In this document: in pieces, positions 1,154-7,910 of the stretch
Numbering within the stretch: position 1 is the first letter of the stretch
How the letters are laid out: every line of letters begins with the position of its first letter
Source: Agromyces bracchium
GTDB taxonomy: Bacteria; Actinomycetota; Actinomycetes; Actinomycetales; Microbacteriaceae
DNA length: 64,000 nt
Assembly (NCBI RefSeq): GCF_009709675.1
Contig: NZ_WMLB01000019.1
Span: forward strand, 62,001 to 126,000
Direction of reading: 5' to 3'
Made by a program: the position numbers and the translations under genes
Notes under the pieces: generated by a model
The model's database searches: none
What the model was told of the DNA's origin: nothing
The model's input: the letters and a program-made list of their open reading frames with translations, nothing else

Positions 1154-1357
1154 GAGGTGATCCTCCCGTGGCCATGAGGCTTTACGTACCAGATGTACTC
1201 AGGCCTTTGGTTCCTCGTCAACCATGAGCCTCCCCCAGTTCTGGTGTGATTTCGCAGCTGATTCGTCGTTCCTCGTCGTTGCGACGACGCATCCCGTGTC
1301 GTCGGTGCGTGCGACGATCCGCGTGACGGACGTTCGGCGGGAGTGCGGGAGGGCGGG

Positions 1358-2554
1358 ATGCGGGGCGAGGCGACGGTGCTGCACGCCGATCTCGACGCGT
1401 TCTACGCCTCGGTCGAGCAGCGAGACGCGCCCGAGTTGCGCGGCCGGCCGGTCATCGTCGGCGGTGGCGTCGTGCTCGCGGCGAGCTACGAGGCGAAGGC
1501 CCGCGGGGTTCGCACCGCGATGGGCGGCCGGCAGGCACGGGACCTCTGCCCGGATGCGGTCGTCGTCCCGCCGCGGATGGACGCGTACTCGGAGGCCAGT
1601 CGAGCCGTGTTCGCGATCTTCCGCGACACGACGCCGTTCGTCGAGGGGCTCTCGATCGACGAGGCGTTCCTCGAGGTCGGAGGCCTCCGACGCATCGCCG
1701 GCACGCCCGAGCAGATCGCGGTGCGTTTGCGTGGGCGGGTCCGCGCGGAGGTCGGGTTGGCCATCTCGGTCGGCATCGCACGGACGAAGTTCCTCGCCAA
1801 GGTCGCCAGCGCGGTCAGCAAGCCCGATGGGCTCCTGATGGTCGAACCCGAGCGGGAGTCGGCGTTCCTGCTCCCCCTGCCCGTGGAACGGTTGTGGGGC
1901 GTCGGCGCGGTCACCGCGGAGAAGCTGCACCGCCTCGGCATCCGCACCGTCGGACAACTGGCGGAACTCGAATCCGCGACCGCCGAGCGACTGCTGGGCA
2001 GGGCGACGGGCGCGCACCTGCATGCGCTGGCACGGCTCCGCGACCCTCGCCCGGTCGACACCACGCACCGCCGCGGTTCCATCGGCTCGCAACGCGCGCT
2101 CGGCAACCGCCCCCGCACGGCCGACGAGCTCGACCTCATCCTCACCCAGGTCGTCGACCGACTCGCCCGTCGTCTCCGCGACGGCGATCGCGGGTGCCGA
2201 ACGGTCGTACTGCGGCTCCGCTACGGCGACTTCGCGAAGGCCACTCGATCCCGCACCCTCCGCTCCGCGACCGACCGCACCGCGGTCCTGCTCGCCATCG
2301 CGCGTGAACTGCTCGCCGCCGCCATGCCCGAGATCGCCGAGCGCGGCATCACCCTGATCGGCGTCTCGTTCTCGCACCTGGCCCGCGGCGACCGCCTCCA
2401 GCCGGAATTGCCGATCGACTGGGAAGACGGAGCGCGCCTCGACACGGTGCTCGACGCCGTACGCGATCGCTTCGGCGCGGCATCCGTCGCACGTGCGGCG
2501 CAACTCGGCCGCGATCCGGGGTGGTCGGCGCCGCTGCTGCCCGAACACGAGTGA
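1358..2554 (+). CDS. dinB: DNA polymerase IV (Y-family translesion polymerase)
   Basis: A 398-residue Y-family polymerase that copies past damaged template bases without proofreading. The palm holds the metal-binding residues in HADLDAFYASVEQ (Asp11, Asp13) and the SIDEAF motif (Asp101, Glu102). Fingers, thumb and little-finger domains follow in the usual order, with the helix-hairpin-helix segment around LWGVGAVTAEKLHRLGI. I prefer ATG 1358, preceded by GGAGG at 1347-1351, over the GTG at 1343, which would add five residues. No beta-clamp peptide is obvious at the extreme C-terminus. No LexA-type operator was found in the 200 bases upstream, so SOS control cannot be claimed. It is a single gene. 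Confidence 0.95.
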   Translation: MRGEATVLHADLDAFYASVEQRDAPELRGRPVIVGGGVVLAASYEAKARGVRTAMGGRQARDLCPDAVVVPPRMDAYSEASRAVFAIFRDTTPFVEGLSIDEAFLEVGGLRRIAGTPEQIAVRLRGRVRAEVGLAISVGIARTKFLAKVASAVSKPDGLLMVEPERESAFLLPLPVERLWGVGAVTAEKLHRLGIRTVGQLAELESATAERLLGRATGAHLHALARLRDPRPVDTTHRRGSIGSQRALGNRPRTADELDLILTQVVDRLARRLRDGDRGCRTVVLRLRYGDFAKATRSRTLRSATDRTAVLLAIARELLAAAMPEIAERGITLIGVSFSHLARGDRLQPELPIDWEDGARLDTVLDAVRDRFGAASVARAAQLGRDPGWSAPLLPEHE

Positions 2555-2600
2555 CGACGACGGGCGTCCGCAGCCGATCCCACGCGCAGAGCACGCCATG

Positions 2601-2642
2601 TCGAGGTAGGGCGGACGGGACTTGAACCCGTGACCGATGGAT
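2601..2642 (-). repeat. Left attachment-site copy: 3' half of the CAU tRNA
   Basis: Forty-two bases identical to 6579-6620. It covers the tRNA from the 3' side of the anticodon stem through the T arm and acceptor strand, plus a few bases beyond. Homology stops sharply just before the anticodon, so this is not a working tRNA. Confidence 0.85.
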
Positions 2643-2996
2643 CAGCCCGGCGCGACTCTGCTGTCTCGGCGCAAGCCGCGACACCTCGAATAATCTCAGC
2701 CCAATCAGGAATTCCTTTCGCCGCGACCGTCGCTGTCGAGCTCCGATGCTACCCGTTGATCGCGGCCGCTTTCGAAACGCCTTGGATCAAGGGGTGCTGG
2801 ATAAACGCGCGCGGATCAAGTCCTCATCCACTCATCTCAGATCGCGATCACCCTCCCCATGTGCACGCCGAACGCTCTTGTGCACTGCCGCTATGAGCAG
2901 GAGTAGCAGTGCACACCCGCTCCATGCCCCGTGCGCTAGATCGAAAATTGATGGAGGTTGCTGACAGTTCGGTCTTCCCATTCGGAGGAAGGATCC
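2643..2996. other. Gene-free stretch of the island
   Basis: No convincing coding sequence. It holds an AT-rich segment (ATAATCTCAGCCCAATCAGG) next to the attachment copy and a motif near 2796-2816 (GGGGTGCTGGATAAACGCGCGCGG) that resembles 6413-6437 near the other end of the island (GGGGTGAATAAACGTGCGCGG). The last 60 bases are the 5' leader of the broken transposase gene, with GGAGGAAGG as its ribosome-binding site. Confidence 0.4.
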
Positions 2997-3220
2997 ATGT
3001 CACAACGAGAGCTCGAGCAACGAGCGAAGCACAAGCTCGCGGTGCTGCGTCACGTCGACGAAGTCAGCGGAATTTTCGCCGCGCGACCTACCGCTCCTAC
3101 GGCATCAGCCGGCAGGTCCACAACAAGTGGCGAAGGCGCTTTGACGAAGAGGGCTACGAAGGGGTGAAATACCGCTCGGGGGTCCCGCATCATCAGCCCA
3201 CCAATAATGATCCTGCCTAG
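2997..3220 (+). pseudogene. IS481-family transposase, N-terminal remnant (frameshifted, cut by an IS)
   Basis: From ATG 2997 the frame gives MSQRELEQRAKHKLAVLRHV and DEVSG, then shifts. After a 2-base CG duplication at about 3081-3085 the second frame continues ATYRSYGISRQ..NKWRRRFDEEGYEG..YRSGVPHHQP. Together these read as the helix-turn-helix N-terminus of an IS481-family transposase. The frame ends at a TAG that belongs to the CTAG target of the IS481 element starting at 3217, so the insertion cut the gene. A short stretch of what looks like the same protein reappears to the right of the IS at 4287-4328. The gene is dead. Confidence 0.75.
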
Positions 3221-3260
3221 CTGTAGTTCCCCCGGACGTTGTGAACGTGGCGTGATGTAG

Positions 3261-3318
3261 CGAAGACCTCCGGGACGATGTGGGTTACCACACTCGCATC
3301 GGCCACCGGAGGTCTTCG
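3261..3318 (+). promoter_or_regulatory. Hairpin masking the transposase ribosome-binding site
   Basis: CGAAGACCTCCGG (3261-3273) is perfectly complementary to CCGGAGGTCTTCG (3306-3318). The right arm contains the GGAGG ribosome-binding site and ends on the G of the GTG start codon. Smaller repeats in the loop (GATG/CATC, GTGG/CCAC) would extend the fold. A transcript entering from outside would fold and hide the start. One starting inside the right part would not. Comparable protection is known in other IS families; here it is inferred from sequence. Confidence 0.65.
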
Positions 3319-4280
3319 TGACTCACGCTAACGCTCATTTGACACCGAAGGGGCGGCTTCGGCTTGCCAAGACCGTCGTCGACGACGGCTGGCCGCTCGC
3401 CCGCGCGGCTGAACGGCACCAGGTCTCTCGGGCCACGGCGAAGAAGTGGGCCGACCGCTGCCGGGCCGGCCTACCGATGACGGACCGGCCCTCGCGACCC
3501 AAGCACACCCCGACCCGGCTCGAGCGGCGCACCGAACGACGGATCATCGCGCTGCGGTTCACCCGACGGTGGGGCCCGCATCGGATCGCGTACCGACTCG
3601 GCCTGCACCCGTCCCAGGTATGGCGCGTGCTGCACCGGTACCGGATGCCGCTACTGGCGCACCTGGATCAGACCACAGGGCTGCCGGCGCGACGGGTCCG
3701 CGCCGTTCGGTACGAGAAGCAAGTCCCGGGCGAGCTGGTGCACGTGGATATCAAGAAGCTCGGCCGCATTCCCAACGGCGGCGGGCACCGCATGCTCGGC
3801 CGCACCGTGGGCAACCGCAACAACAAGAAGCAGGGACTCGGCTACTCCTACCTGCACCACGCCGTCGACGACTATTCGCGACTGGCGTACTCCGAGATCC
3901 TCGCCGACGAGCGCAAGGAAACGGCTGCCGCGTTCTGGAACCGCGCGAACGCATTCTTCGCCGACGCCGGCATTACCGTCACTGCGGTCATGACCGACAA
4001 CGGCTCCTGCTACCGATCCAAGCTCTTCAAGACCGCGCTCGGGAACCTCGACCATTACCGGACCCGCCCGTACCGACCGCAGACCAACGGGACGGTGGAG
4101 CGCTTCAACCGCACCCTGGCCGCCGAGTGGGCCTACGCAGCGACCTACCGCAGCGACGAAGCCAGGGCCGCAACCTACGACGCCTGGCTCCATCACTACA
4201 ATCACCACCGACCCCACACCGGAATCGGTGGATCAACCCCAGCAGGCCGCGTTCACAACCTCACGGCGAACTACAACTAG
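3318..4280 (+). CDS. IS481-family transposase (DDE)
   Basis: A 320-residue transposase starting at GTG 3318, eight bases after GGAGG. Residues 1-115 contain two helix-turn-helix units (LAKTVVDDGWPLARAAERH and the segment around RIAYRLGLHPSQVWRVLHRY), which bind the terminal repeats. The RNase H-like core carries Asp144 (LVHVDIKKLGR), Asp227 (AVMTDNGSCY) and Glu261 (QTNGTVERFNRT), a DD-x33-E arrangement. Length and ends fit a complete IS481 transposase. The stop codon TAG lies in the CTAG at the right end of the element. The reading frame is intact, so the enzyme is probably functional. Confidence 0.92.
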   Translation: MTHANAHLTPKGRLRLAKTVVDDGWPLARAAERHQVSRATAKKWADRCRAGLPMTDRPSRPKHTPTRLERRTERRIIALRFTRRWGPHRIAYRLGLHPSQVWRVLHRYRMPLLAHLDQTTGLPARRVRAVRYEKQVPGELVHVDIKKLGRIPNGGGHRMLGRTVGNRNNKKQGLGYSYLHHAVDDYSRLAYSEILADERKETAAAFWNRANAFFADAGITVTAVMTDNGSCYRSKLFKTALGNLDHYRTRPYRPQTNGTVERFNRTLAAEWAYAATYRSDEARAATYDAWLHHYNHHRPHTGIGGSTPAGRVHNLTANYN

Positions 4281-4286
4281 CTCGGC

Positions 4287-4451
4287 CTGAGCCGCCTTCG
4301 CTTGTCGCGGCGATACAAGCGCTTCTAGCCCGGCGATGGGGTCGCCTCCGTCGTCGAAGAACATGACGCCGTCGGTCTCGTAGAAGACCTGAACGCGTTG
4401 GCAGACCTAGTCGCTGCTGATCTGGAAGCAGATCCCGCGGGTGGGCCCTAG
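4287..4451 (+). pseudogene. Coding remnants right of the IS481 element
   Basis: Frame 4287-4328 reads LSRLRLSRRYKRF and then stops; this resembles the LNRLPxSQRYKRH segment of the transposase whose N-terminus lies at 2997-3220. About 50 codons between the two parts are missing. The same frame reopens to 4451 with a well-formed acidic tail (VASVVEEHDAVGLVEDLNA and onward, ending PAGGP), which looks like the C-terminus of some unrelated gene with no start. I cannot name it. Confidence 0.4.
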
Positions 4452-4454
4452 AGT
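4449..4454 (+). promoter_or_regulatory. Possible -10 box for a leaderless transcript
   Basis: TAGAGT lies six bases before the ATG at 4461, and no ribosome-binding site is seen. This spacing fits leaderless transcription, which is common in actinobacteria. Inferred from spacing only. Confidence 0.35.
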
Positions 4455-4460
4455 TGGCGC

Positions 4461-4967
4461 ATGCCGCCGACACCAAGCCCTTCTCCTCTCCAAGTCGGCG
4501 CTACCGATCTGACTCCATGGATTGCACTGGCGGGCACGATCTTTGCGTCGCTACTCGCTCTCGCCGGTGTGATCGTGCTGTTCTGGCTTCAACGGAACGC
4601 CGTACGGAAAGGCGAGCGGCAAAGGGCCCAGGACGAGGCTTTCGAACGGCTCTCCGCCATCTTCGCGCGGGCAGCCGAGGCGGCAAGCTCGGGTGATGTC
4701 CCCAAACTTACCGCGGTCGTAAACGTGTTCGTGATGCGTGTGAGTGAGGCGATCTGGTACATCGATACCAGCGACGAATATGTAGCCGACTGGATCGTCG
4801 AACGCGTGCAACGCCTGTCCAGAGCTCTCATTGATGAGCCCGATCTGACCAAGCGGGGAGACATCCTGAAGTCGGCTCACCGCGACCTCACCGTCGTGCT
4901 CAGACATTGGCGCTACGGCACGATCCCCACGAGGAACTTCTCCGAGTGGGTGAAGCATCTCGACTAG
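4461..4967 (+). CDS. Single-helix membrane protein of the island, unknown function
   Basis: A 168-residue protein with one transmembrane helix at about residues 17-44 (PWIALAGTIFASLLALAGV). A basic stretch (LQRNAVRKGERQRA) follows, then a soluble, helical domain rich in Glu, Asp and Arg to the end. The topology resembles small accessory proteins encoded on plasmids and islands, but no family motif is recognised. Base composition is lower in GC than the backbone, consistent with transfer. A hairpin overlapping its stop codon may end transcription. Neighbours are IS remnants and non-coding island DNA, so context gives no function. Confidence 0.65.
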   Translation: MPPTPSPSPLQVGATDLTPWIALAGTIFASLLALAGVIVLFWLQRNAVRKGERQRAQDEAFERLSAIFARAAEAASSGDVPKLTAVVNVFVMRVSEAIWYIDTSDEYVADWIVERVQRLSRALIDEPDLTKRGDILKSAHRDLTVVLRHWRYGTIPTRNFSEWVKHLD

Positions 4968-4997
4968 AGGGGACCCGAAGGGGCCCCCATCGAGATG
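4956..4997 (+). terminator. Hairpin at the end of the island membrane-protein gene
   Basis: CATCTCGA (4956-4963) pairs with TCGAGATG (4990-4997), with an inner GGGG/CCCC pairing. The stem includes the last codons and stop. No T-run follows, so a transcription-ending role is likely but not certain. Confidence 0.45.
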
Positions 4998-5290
4998 TTG
5001 GCGCGCCGGGGTCGTACCCGACGAGCGAGGGGCGATCAAACCCTCAAGTAAATTGGCACCTCGGAGTTGGATTCCGCCGTGCCAGTCGCAGCCGACGGTC
5101 GTTGAATGGTGTTCAGGGCCATGGCTATGGACATCCCGGCGGCCCAGGGGCCCCAAGCCAAGATCGGAAACGCCCCTATCCTCTGATTGGCAGGGCGAGC
5201 AGCTCCAGATTCTGTGGGGAAGCGGGGCCAACTCCGACCCAAACTCGAGCCCAGGATCGGTCCGAAATATCTGATCAGCCGCGCTTCGGC
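4998..5290. other. Gene-free stretch of the island
   Basis: Mixed-composition DNA. A minus-strand frame contains a hydrophobic segment (FPILAWGPWAAGMSIAMAL), but it has no ribosome-binding site, runs through the attachment-site copy and has no recognisable family. I see no supportable gene. Confidence 0.35.
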
Positions 5291-5325
5291 AGGGCGGACC
5301 GGACTTGAACCCGTGACCGATGGAT
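5291..5325 (-). repeat. Middle attachment-site copy: 3' half of the CAU tRNA
   Basis: Thirty-five bases matching the tRNA 3' half at 34 positions (C for G at 5300). It lies between the outer copy at 2601 and the intact tRNA at 6585, marking the junction of two insertions made at the same site. Confidence 0.8.
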
Positions 5326-5622
5326 CTGCTCGGCGATGAGCCGCCGCCTCGGCATGAGCCGAGTTCCTCGGGCGCGACCCGTGCACGATCTCTCGCGACC
5401 TGAGTCGCGGCGCATCGATGCGGACCACGAGGTGCGACTACCGGGCGACGATCGCGCACCGCACGACCTCTTCCAGGCTTTGCTAGCCTCCGAGAATCGC
5501 CCCCTGCGATGACTGCTGGAATACATGCCGTCGCATCGGCCCGAAATTCAACCGTCGTCGACACCGGTGGCCATGGTCCCGATTCACTACCCACTCTGAC
5601 AAGCGGTCCTGACGGTCGATCG
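5326..5622. other. Gene-free stretch after the middle attachment copy
   Basis: No coding sequence I can support. It begins with short CG-rich inverted repeats (CCTCGGCATGAGCCGAG) of the sort found beside integrase attachment sites, then becomes AT-richer toward the promoter of the repeat-protein gene. Confidence 0.35.
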
Positions 5623-5651
5623 TAGGCAATTGGCGCCCGCGCGACGATAAT
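5623..5651 (+). promoter_or_regulatory. Promoter for the acidic repeat-protein gene
   Basis: TAGGCA at 5623-5628 and GATAAT at 5646-5651 are separated by 17 bases, a fair sigma-70-type match in otherwise GC-rich DNA. The predicted transcript would have a leader of about 40 bases before GTG 5698. Confidence 0.5.
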
Positions 5652-5697
5652 CGGCATTGGGGCGACGCCAAGGTGCGCTCGGAATGAGGTGGTCGCA

Positions 5698-5979
5698 GTG
5701 GCAGAGATGAAGTTCGACCCAGACAAAATGTGGGACGGCATAGGCGACAGCATGGACAAGCTGAACGCAACTCCTAACCGCCCGCCTGAATACCCGCCCG
5801 GCGAGACCGCAATCGGTGACGACGGCTACGGCGGTAACAAGACCTCGATCGGCGATGACGAGGACGCAGGCGGTGAGACCGCCATCGGTGACGACGGCTA
5901 CCCGGGCGGGGACACTGCCATTGGCGACGAGAACGCCGATTACCCGAGGCTCGACGGGGACGACTATCCGCGCGTCTAG
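5698..5979 (+). CDS. Small acidic protein with tandem TAIGDDG repeats, unknown
   Basis: About 93 residues from GTG 5698, with GGAATGAGG just upstream; GTG 5689 would add three. The N-terminus (MKFDPDKMWDGIGDSMDKLN) could form one amphipathic helix. Then come four repeats of roughly 13 residues built on T-[AS]-I-G-D-[DE]: ETAIGDDGYGG, KTSIGDDEDAGG, ETAIGDDGYPGG and DTAIGDENAD. The tail is YPRLDGDDYPRV. The protein is strongly acidic, glycine-rich and probably unstructured. The spaced Asp residues could bind divalent cations, but they do not match known Ca-binding repeats. No signal peptide or membrane helix. I recognise no family. A good promoter and ribosome-binding site argue that it is a real gene. 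Confidence 0.6.
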   Translation: MAEMKFDPDKMWDGIGDSMDKLNATPNRPPEYPPGETAIGDDGYGGNKTSIGDDEDAGGETAIGDDGYPGGDTAIGDENADYPRLDGDDYPRV

Positions 5980-6496
5980 GCCGATTCGTCGGTGTCAGCC
6001 CAAGCCCAGTCTCAGACATGGCATGCGCGGTCGCGGTCGCCGGGTCGAGTTTCCAGCCTCAAGGTCGGACCTTTACGCCGCGATGCTCGACATCCGATCG
6101 GCCCAGCGATAGCCATACCGTTCTAAGGCGACGCGACGCCTCGCTCGAGCAGGCGCTCCCCTTCCGCGAGCTCCGAGCTCCGTTACAGCGATCCGCCCGG
6201 ACTAGTCAGGGCTGCCTCGTTGGGCTGCCGTTGCCCGTTCCTGTCTTCATCGGATGTCACGCATCGCGTCGAACTCTTGTCCCACCGAAATGAGCCGATC
6301 TCGGGTTTCTCGGCTTCCACAAGCAAGCCGAGGAACGCGACGGCTACGCCTCGGACGCCGTCTCGACGTCAGGCGACGTCGACATGTGCCCGGGCATGGA
6401 TCGCGATGCGATCAGGGGTGAATAAACGTGCGCGGCGTGCGCTCTCCGGCTAGCCCGAGTCCAATGACACTCCCAGATCAAGGGAGACTTCCGCGC
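5980..6496. other. Gene-free stretch of the island
   Basis: No coding sequence with a credible start or family. It contains a GGGGTGAATAAACGTGCGCGG motif at 6416-6437 resembling one at 2796-2816 near the other end of the island. Confidence 0.35.
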
Positions 6497-6565
6497 CTAA
6501 CGAGGGACTTGAACCCAAGTTAGGGCGTAGGAATGTCACAGGTTCGAATCTAGGGTCCCCGATCA
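6497..6565. other. Two tRNA T-arm-like relics facing each other
   Basis: On the minus strand 6497-6523 reads TTGGGTTCAAGTCCC inside a CTAAC/GTTAG inverted repeat. On the plus strand 6537-6560 reads CACAGGTTCGAATC followed by GGTCCCCGA. Both resemble the T loop and acceptor 3' strand of tRNAs, but no cloverleaf can be built. They are probably scars of earlier integration events next to the tRNA site. Confidence 0.35.
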
Positions 6566-6578
6566 ACGGCGGCACATC

Positions 6579-6620
6579 TCGAGGTAGGGCGGACGGGACT
6601 TGAACCCGTGACCGATGGAT
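6579..6620 (-). repeat. Right attachment-site copy, within the intact tRNA
   Basis: The 42-bp sequence shared with 2601-2642. It forms the 3' half of the working tRNA gene and is the presumed crossover region. Confidence 0.85.
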
Positions 6621-6658
6621 TATGAGTCCACTGCTCTAACCGGCTGAGCTACCGCCCC
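6585..6658 (-). tRNA. tRNA with CAU anticodon (probably tRNA-Ile2, possibly elongator Met)
   Basis: A full 74-base cloverleaf: acceptor GGGGCGG/CCGCCCT (one G-U), D stem GCTC/GAGC, anticodon stem GTGGA/TCCAT with loop CTCATAA, T stem ACGGG/CCCGT with loop TTCAAGT, discriminator A. CCA is not encoded. A CAU anticodon could be Met or the Ile2 type modified by TilS. The GAGCAG and TTCAAGT details resemble Ile2, but sequence alone does not settle it. The gene is the insertion site of the island to its left. Confidence 0.9.
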
Positions 6659-6668
6659 GTGAGCGATC

Positions 6669-7910
6669 TCAGTCGGGAACGATGACCGGGATCGACTCGG
6701 TGACCGGATCGGTCACGCGCTGACCACGATACAGACTCTCGAACGTGTCGAGCGTGCGGGTGATGTCGTGGGCCTTGATGAGCTTGAGCGATTGCGCCTT
6801 GAGGGCGTTGTAGTCGTCGGGCGTGGCCTCGAGCACGGTGCGGAGCTTGTCGGCGAGGTCCTTCGGGTCGCCCGGCTCGAACAGGTAGCCGTTCTCGCCG
6901 TGGTGCACGAGGTGCGGCAGGGCCATCGCGTTGGCGGCGACGACGGGCAGCGCCGAGGCCATGGCCTCCATGGTGACGATGCTCTGCAGCTCGGCGATCG
7001 AGGGCATCGCGAGCACCGAGGCCCGGTGGTACGCCTCGCGGAGCTCTTCGTCGGTGACGTAGCCGGTGAAGGTGACGCGGTCGGCGATGCCGAGCTCGAC
7101 GGCGAGGTGCTCGAGGTTGCGCTTCTGGTCGCCGCCGCCGACGACGTCGACCTTCACGTCGAGTTCGGCCGGCAGCAGCGTCACGGCCCGCAGGAGCACG
7201 TCGATCTGCTTCTCGCCGGTGACTCGGCCGACGAAGACGATGCGGTTCTCGGTGCGCGGCTCCCAGTTCGGCGAGTACTTGTGCGCGTCGATGCCGCACG
7301 AGATGGCGTGCACGCCGCGGAGGCCGGTGTACTTCTCGAGGAAGTCGGCGGCGCGACGCGTGGGCGTCGTGACGGACTCGGCCCGCCCGAACGTGCGCCG
7401 AGCGGCCTTCCAGGCGAGACCGACGGCCCAGTCCTGCCACGCCTTCGGGATCAGCGTGAACTCGAGCATGTTCTCGGGCATGAAGTGGTTGGTGCCGACG
7501 ATGCGGATGCCGCGCTTCGCGGCCTCGATCGAGAGGCCGCGACCGACCACGATGTGCGACTGGAAGTGCACGACGTCGGGCTTCACCTCGTCGAGGATGC
7601 GTGCACTGTTCTGCTTGATCCGCCACGGCAGCGCGAAGCGCAGCCAGTCGTGCGGGTACCAGCGCCAGCTCAGCAGGCGGTGCGCCGTGAGTTCCTGCCC
7701 CTCGTGGACCTCCTTCCACGTGCCGTGCTTGCGGCTCGCGGCGGGGGCAACGATGTGCACGTCGTGACCGCGCTCGACGAGTCCGGCGGCGAGCCGCTCG
7801 GCGAAGCGCGCGGCTCCGTTGACGTCGGGCGCGAAGGTGTCGGCGCCGATCAGGATCCGGAGCGGGCGCTCCGCGCCGGGATCGGCGGACACGCTCGATG
7901 AGTCGGACAC
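6669..7910 (-). CDS. GT4-family glycosyltransferase
   Basis: A 413-residue retaining glycosyltransferase with two Rossmann-like (GT-B) halves. The N-terminal half starts RILIGADTFAPDVNGAARF, with the glycine loop that binds acceptor and phosphate. The C-terminal nucleotide-sugar half has FVGRVTGEKQIDVLLRA and an E-x7-E motif (PSIAELQSIVTMEAMA). It is closest in pattern to the PimB/MshA/WsaF group that transfers mannose or similar sugars to lipids and envelope glycans. The substrate cannot be fixed from sequence. Cytosolic or membrane-associated; no transmembrane helix. It lies just upstream, in transcription sense, of the CAU tRNA. Confidence 0.88.
   Translation of the reverse strand: MSDSSSVSADPGAERPLRILIGADTFAPDVNGAARFAERLAAGLVERGHDVHIVAPAASRKHGTWKEVHEGQELTAHRLLSWRWYPHDWLRFALPWRIKQNSARILDEVKPDVVHFQSHIVVGRGLSIEAAKRGIRIVGTNHFMPENMLEFTLIPKAWQDWAVGLAWKAARRTFGRAESVTTPTRRAADFLEKYTGLRGVHAISCGIDAHKYSPNWEPRTENRIVFVGRVTGEKQIDVLLRAVTLLPAELDVKVDVVGGGDQKRNLEHLAVELGIADRVTFTGYVTDEELREAYHRASVLAMPSIAELQSIVTMEAMASALPVVAANAMALPHLVHHGENGYLFEPGDPKDLADKLRTVLEATPDDYNALKAQSLKLIKAHDITRTLDTFESLYRGQRVTDPVTESIPVIVPD

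Follow-up and report, generated by a model that had tools for sequence, protein, structure and literature searches.

A 64,000-nucleotide stretch of the Agromyces bracchium genome (assembly GCF_009709675.1, contig NZ_WMLB01000019.1, positions 62,001 to 126,000, hereafter the window) carries the 3' half of a transfer RNA (tRNA) gene with anticodon CAU three times, once within the intact gene and twice displaced from it. We consider it highly likely, from sequence comparison, that two decayed integrative elements resembling cis-mobilizable elements (CIMEs) lie in tandem at this locus, inserted at the 3' half of the tRNA gene, which is probably a tRNA-Ile2 gene. The evidence consists of the three attachment (att) copies, of element right ends that recur in relatives and of larger elements, encoding an integrase and VirD4/VirB4-like proteins, that occupy the same tRNA gene in relatives. 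The likelihoods attached below to other explanations overlap with that of the preferred one and do not sum to one.

Three half-tRNA copies and the units between them

The intact gene (6583-6658, minus strand, predicted by ARAGORN) contributes the att core with its 3' half. The outermost displaced copy (copy 3, 2601-2642, minus strand), at the junction with the chromosome on the side of a dinB-like gene, is identical to 6579-6620 in 42 of 42 bases (38/38 over 2605-2642), as an earlier note on this DNA had stated. The intermediate one (copy 2, 5288-5325, minus strand) is identical in 36 of 38 bases, and the 34/35 match that the note had given for 5291-5325 held as well (97.1%, measured against the intact tRNA of relatives). 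With a 35-base half-tRNA pattern the three places were recovered on the minus strand, 6584-6618 and 2606-2640 without mismatches and 5289-5323 with two, and 100 dinucleotide-preserving shuffles of the window gave zero matches, which puts the copies far above chance. Both displaced copies lie downstream of the intact gene, in its orientation.

The copies delimit an inner unit A (5326-6582, G+C 0.637) and an outer unit B (2643-5287), the latter holding an IS481-family insertion sequence (IS). The segments between the copies had been described as AT-richer and devoid of an integrase, and both descriptions were borne out: G+C is 0.635 over 2643-6578 and 0.612 in B minus the IS, versus 0.719 in the remainder, where the lowest value of any 1.25-kb segment within 6661-64000 is 0.652. 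Neither integrase nor transfer domains were detected by a Pfam scan of five reading frames of the island, there was no match to PF00589 (tyrosine integrase) or PF00239 (serine recombinase) within it, and tblastn searches with six integrase/excisionase frames of relatives against 2555-6583, up to an E value of 10, gave nothing convincing (best E 0.055).

Element ends shared with relatives

The ends of the units were compared with those at 32 displaced copies, two of them from the window (hereafter, G numbers designate genomes, L numbers loci and C numbers contigs). The right end of unit B (2606-2825, minus strand), i.e., its att arm, belongs to what we call family I: over 218-223 bases, ends at displaced copies in five relatives agree with it at 73-79% identity (G002, G004, G007, G013 with two copies, and G056, a genome identified by contig position and T-arm variant as very probably A. 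luteolus). In G007 the tRNA is on contig C22 and this displaced copy on C10, and the G056 copy is also off the tRNA contig, the other family I copies being on the contig of the tRNA. The right end of unit A (5326-5371, minus strand) is family I-like and extends ca. 46 bases beyond the att copy; with that copy included, ca. 76-84 bases are 81-85% identical to ends in G002, G013 (one copy), G007 (two) and G056, and another G013 copy matches at 72% over 122 bases. A second large right-end family is found in G007, G008, G011, G015, G020, G021, G044 and G055, and the remaining families are some smaller ones. In three units with this second type of end (G007, G015 and G044; loci L067, L038 and L157), a protein of 208-231 amino acids (75-84% pairwise identity), which we take to be Fic-like, is encoded ca. 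0.3 kb inside the right end. The end sequences common to relatives support the proposal of the earlier note that foreign DNA entered the same tRNA site at least twice, and its description of the segments as integrase-less remnants stands as the best reading.

At the opposite side of each unit a short motif was sought, taking as reference 15 loci picked for holding an integrase module, in which TGATCAGG, or 7/8 of it, stands 12-14 bases after the att core. Unit B carries a 7/8 match (TGATCAGA, 5270-5277, minus strand, with TATTTC after it) at an offset of 11 bases from the att core of copy 2, and unit A a possible but weak one (TGATCGGG, 6558-6565, minus strand, 7/8) 18 bases after the core. 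After copy 3 only 5/8 positions match, which is the expected outcome because this copy would abut the chromosome.

Larger elements at the same tRNA

In several relatives the tRNA adjoins a 1.6-kb block made up of an att arm, an excisionase-like helix-turn-helix (HTH) gene and a tyrosine integrase gene (67-97% pairwise identity). It occurs in Agromyces (G004, G007, G020, G022, G054 and A. italicus L072), in Leifsonia (L103) and in Cryobacterium (L111, L123, L128, L130, L131, L138, L139 and L144; in L131 it is shared over 1.35 kb), and in G007 (Agromyces sp. ISL-38) it codes for the excisionase-like HTH protein and a 412-amino acid tyrosine integrase. In the 72.8-kb unit of G020, genes for a VirB4-like protein and for a VirD4-like coupling protein (above the Pfam cut-off) are accompanied by type I restriction genes that lie toward the far end, and the G004 unit combines an integrase match with a VirB4-like protein. 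As both VirB4-like matches are below NCBIfam cut-offs and relaxases were not searched for, these elements are likely, rather than proven, to be conjugative. The 1.68-kb unit of G002 joins ca. 290 bases of the left end of an integrase element (89% identical to G020) to 218 bases of a family I right end, without any PF00589 match, and appears to be a visible step of decay.

A scenario of tandem accretion and decay

We propose that the first element (B), which would have encoded a tyrosine integrase and had a matching att site of ca. 35-38 bases, recombined into the tRNA 3' half. Its own copy would have rebuilt the tRNA, pushing the old 3' half outward to become copy 3 beside dinB. A second, related element (A) would then have re-used the rebuilt tRNA after B, leaving copy 2 between the two, so that B would be the older and A the younger insertion. 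Both would subsequently have lost the integrase and transfer genes they presumably once held, with the ends kept, and an IS481 copy would have entered B. By this account the donors were probably conjugative elements rather than phages.

With their att ends kept and the integrase gone, A and B resemble CIMEs. Att copies bound both units, the two right ends are recognizable, the left motif is present in B and weakly in A, and no genes for integration or for transfer were detected in either. One account of CIMEs, and of their tandem accretion with integrative and conjugative elements (ICEs) and integrative and mobilizable elements, describes the same retention of att ends, loss of integration and transfer genes and stacking at one target gene (PMC5704250). 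Compared with the tandems described there, ours has two decayed units, no functional element in the array and Agromyces as host. A possible link to ICEs comes from the right end of B, which matches that of the G004 unit with its integrase and VirB4-like genes, although neither A nor B retains an ICE gene. The elements of the relatives resemble the actinomycete ICEs (AICEs), which have a tyrosine integrase and an excisionase-like gene and integrate at the 3' end of tRNA genes (PMC3218068). They differ in carrying VirD4/VirB4-like genes, the AICE set comprising FtsK-like Tra and Rep, and none of these ICE genes was found in A or B.

Several points weigh against this scenario. The tblastn searches found no vestige of an integrase in either unit, and unit B could be the left end of one element fused to the right end of another after a deletion. 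The left ends are less telling than the right ones: at least 7/8 of the motif, at offsets of 10-20 bases, follows 44 of 90 distinct tRNA-adjacent 40-mers and 17 of 30 displaced copies (window excluded) versus 0.5% of 20,000 random 40-mers, counts that are partly circular because the motif was drawn from loci within the set and the offset range was fixed after the values of the window were known. The left end of A has its 7/8 match at offset 18, versus 12-14 in the integrase-module loci, and neither left end of the window clusters with any other left end beyond the motif.

Empty sites are a further such point. The earlier note had predicted relatives in which the tRNA is followed directly by the dinB side, and had named the lack of such genomes as speaking against its own proposal. 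We searched for dinB (in the window at 1343-2554, plus strand, a Y-family polymerase gene matching PF00817 at E 2.2e-48) in 59 relatives (24 + 35), comparing tRNA positions by eye, and found this arrangement in none of them, which formally counts against the proposal. The comparison is incomplete in at least seven genomes, where tRNA and dinB are on separate contigs (G041, G045, G049, G050, G056, G069 and G074). In several relatives dinB is found downstream of the tRNA at varying distance, as close as 1.4 kb in A. binzhouensis and as far off as tens of kb; it is located elsewhere in G002 and G010, and some other relatives lack a close homologue. Two short gaps hold no half copy: that of 2.8 kb in G019, and that of 1.4 kb in A. 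binzhouensis (G014), which contains a peptidase-like frame (L034, 4988-6079, on visual inspection shifted out of frame close to the start) that we take to be M29-like. A similar peptidase 3' end precedes dinB in A. kandeliae (G053, L153, just before 13639). Because this gene end stands before dinB in both species, the order of tRNA followed by dinB may itself not be original.

The genome of A. luteolus (G056) was considered as an empty site and rejected, since copy 3 is present there together with an element right end, and the tRNA is on another contig. Its outermost half copy is 41 bases from the dinB-side homology, the same distance as in the window, so that the outer junction either would be common to the two species or would have formed twice at one place. 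When the 600 bases before dinB were searched for decayed half copies in 10 loci, G056 alone exceeded its shuffles.

Half-tRNA copies across Agromyces

The 35-base pattern, allowing up to three mismatches, was searched in 60 Agromyces genomes including that of the window. At least two matches were present in 24 of them and at least three in eight, with none in four; a reversed control pattern had no match. Second copies off the tRNA contig were seen in G007, G022, G042 and G067. Among the first 25 genomes, 12 have the tRNA and displaced copies on one contig, at distances of 1.3 to 109 kb. Tyrosine integrases (PF00589 at E 0.001 or below) are matched in 3 of these 12 arrays and in 3 of their 19 att-bounded units, leaving 16 units of 1.3-29.8 kb without one; no PF00239 serine recombinase lies inside the 12 arrays (13 genomes searched, positions compared by eye).

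A variant T arm with paired changes (e.g., CACCAGTTCAAGTCTGG for CACGGGTTCAAGTCCCG) characterizes the tRNA of A. luteolus (L069/L214, G056), of G012 (L053) and of A. lapidis (L039, G013). Because the G013 tRNA has this other T arm, both half-tRNA matches of that genome are displaced copies, as is the single match of G056, and the displaced copies of both genomes keep the standard T arm. The pattern would fit replacement of the tRNA 3' half by an incoming element.

Elsewhere in the genome of the window (G000), three other tyrosine integrase matches are within 0.5 kb of tRNA genes, at C20:16649 (Met/Thr), C37:163854 (Phe/Asp/Glu) and C36:1231 (Arg).

Alternative explanations

The 16 integrase-less units, and the absence of PF00239 from the arrays, are also what one would see if A and B, small and non-autonomous, could still move in trans with the help of an integrase encoded by elements that share their att site. 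In its general form, the tRNA-Ile2 gene of Agromyces would be a docking site for integrase-less cassettes (ca. 1-30 kb) with att arms of a shared type, moved by an occasional full conjugative element, and A and B would be small members rather than dead relics. The retention of right ends and, in many units, of left-end motifs fits this, and G008 has a tandem of two integrase-less units whose ends are alike but whose genes differ. Yet none of the seven PF00589 matches of G000 is at this tRNA, unit A has weak ends, the lack of conserved genes and the inserted IS look like decay, and more decayed att copies that escaped detection could make some of the "units" composites. We regard movement in trans as a rather unlikely account of A and B.

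More doubtful still is that A and/or B are prophage remnants instead of conjugative ones, a variant of stacked insertion that does not exclude the tandem. At the edge of the stretch retrieved from a 36-kb IMG/VR contig (L149, 10575-10609), the half-tRNA occurs without a mismatch and is extended by a few tRNA bases, so that a phage-like element may use the same tRNA gene. Phage integrases resemble that of G007 at 37-40% identity in the ten best matches listed. Against this reading, no left-end motif was recognized by eye in the flank on the viral contig, and unit B shares its right-end family with the G004 unit, in which an integrase match and a VirB4-like gene are present. The only two proteins of A and B searched against PHROGs, of 168 and 96 amino acids, match no family there.

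An origin of the half copies from tRNA gene duplication, as debris of a decayed tandem array, would fit their direct orientation downstream of the intact gene, but we reject this as very improbable: the 3' half alone was copied, from about one point each time, displaced copies are up to 109 kb from the tRNA in the 12 genomes, and most of the 32 are preceded by one of a few shared element ends and not by a tRNA 5' half (the G040 copy is the sole one with a few further tRNA bases upstream).

The tRNA gene, its neighbour and the content of the units

ARAGORN labels the tRNA at 6583-6658 as Met, from its CAU anticodon. The genome of the window has 46 tRNA matches, 45 of them confirmed by ARAGORN, and three of the 45 have this anticodon: the att-site gene, L191, which we take to be initiator-like, and L192, beside tRNA-Thr, which we take to be elongator-like. 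Since the other two carry these initiator and elongator features, the attachment gene is by elimination probably tRNA-Ile2, used here in the sense of a predicted substrate of TilS (lysidine modification), whose gene is present in this genome above the cut-off. On its other side the tRNA is flanked by a GT4 glycosyltransferase gene (6669-7910, minus strand, identified with Pfam) that adjoins it in relatives too and is 98% identical to its counterpart in A. luteolus and 97% in A. binzhouensis.

The island had been called nearly gene-free, which is wrong, given a full-length IS481-family transposase in B (3318-4280; NF033577, E 1.5e-95, 319.9 bits, cut-off 224) and two further frames of 168 and 96 codons. 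The IS (3221-4276, plus strand) has terminal inverted repeats matching in 24 of 30 positions and CTAG on either side (3217-3220 and 4277-4280), a target duplication of the sequence that we take to be preferred by the family; in transposase, repeats and flanks it is like IS481 elements, and we noticed no difference. Next to it is a fragment of a second IS481-type transposase, with the leucine-zipper/HTH part only (2909-3220, plus strand; PF13011, E 1.4e-4, 22.5 bits, cut-off 22.2).

The cargo of B is a 168-amino acid protein (4461-4967, plus strand) with one N-terminal hydrophobic stretch, by look. It has weak Pfam/NCBIfam matches below curated cut-offs (CcmD-like and others), a weak PADLOC match to a one-transmembrane effector (E 0.0027) and, besides itself, eight weak relatives in 299 Microbacteriaceae genomes. 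The cargo of A is an acidic repeat protein of 96 amino acids (5689-5979, plus strand) without a match in Pfam, NCBIfam or PADLOC and with one weak relative in the same genomes. No tRNA genes are near these relatives in the eight loci fetched of the nine. With relatives so few and weak, we found no evidence for the suggestion that the cargo might be the reason for which the island was retained.

T-arm-like pieces occur on both strands at 6499-6550, a short way in from the left end of unit A. Compared with the tRNAs of the genome, they match a piece of tRNA-Leu(UAG) in 17 of 18 bases (score 31) and tRNA-Pro(UGG) in 15 of 16 (score 27), with shuffles (n = 30) reaching at most 25. A palindrome like GGACTTGAACCCAAGTCC, resembling these pieces, is present in a cluster of six aligned left ends of relatives, some of them integrase-less.

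A probable integration hotspot at tRNA(CAU)

The locus points to an integration hotspot at tRNA(CAU) across Agromyces and other Microbacteriaceae. We found no literature on it by title or abstract opening, which is weak evidence. The locus in the window offers a small and clean, though ordinary, example of tandem accretion and decay. Less ordinary is that, among the att-bounded units of the arrays examined at this tRNA, those without an integrase are in excess. If such units were indeed moved in trans, soil actinobacteria would have in the hotspot a cassette system by which single functional modules are exchanged, with no need for an integrase in each unit.

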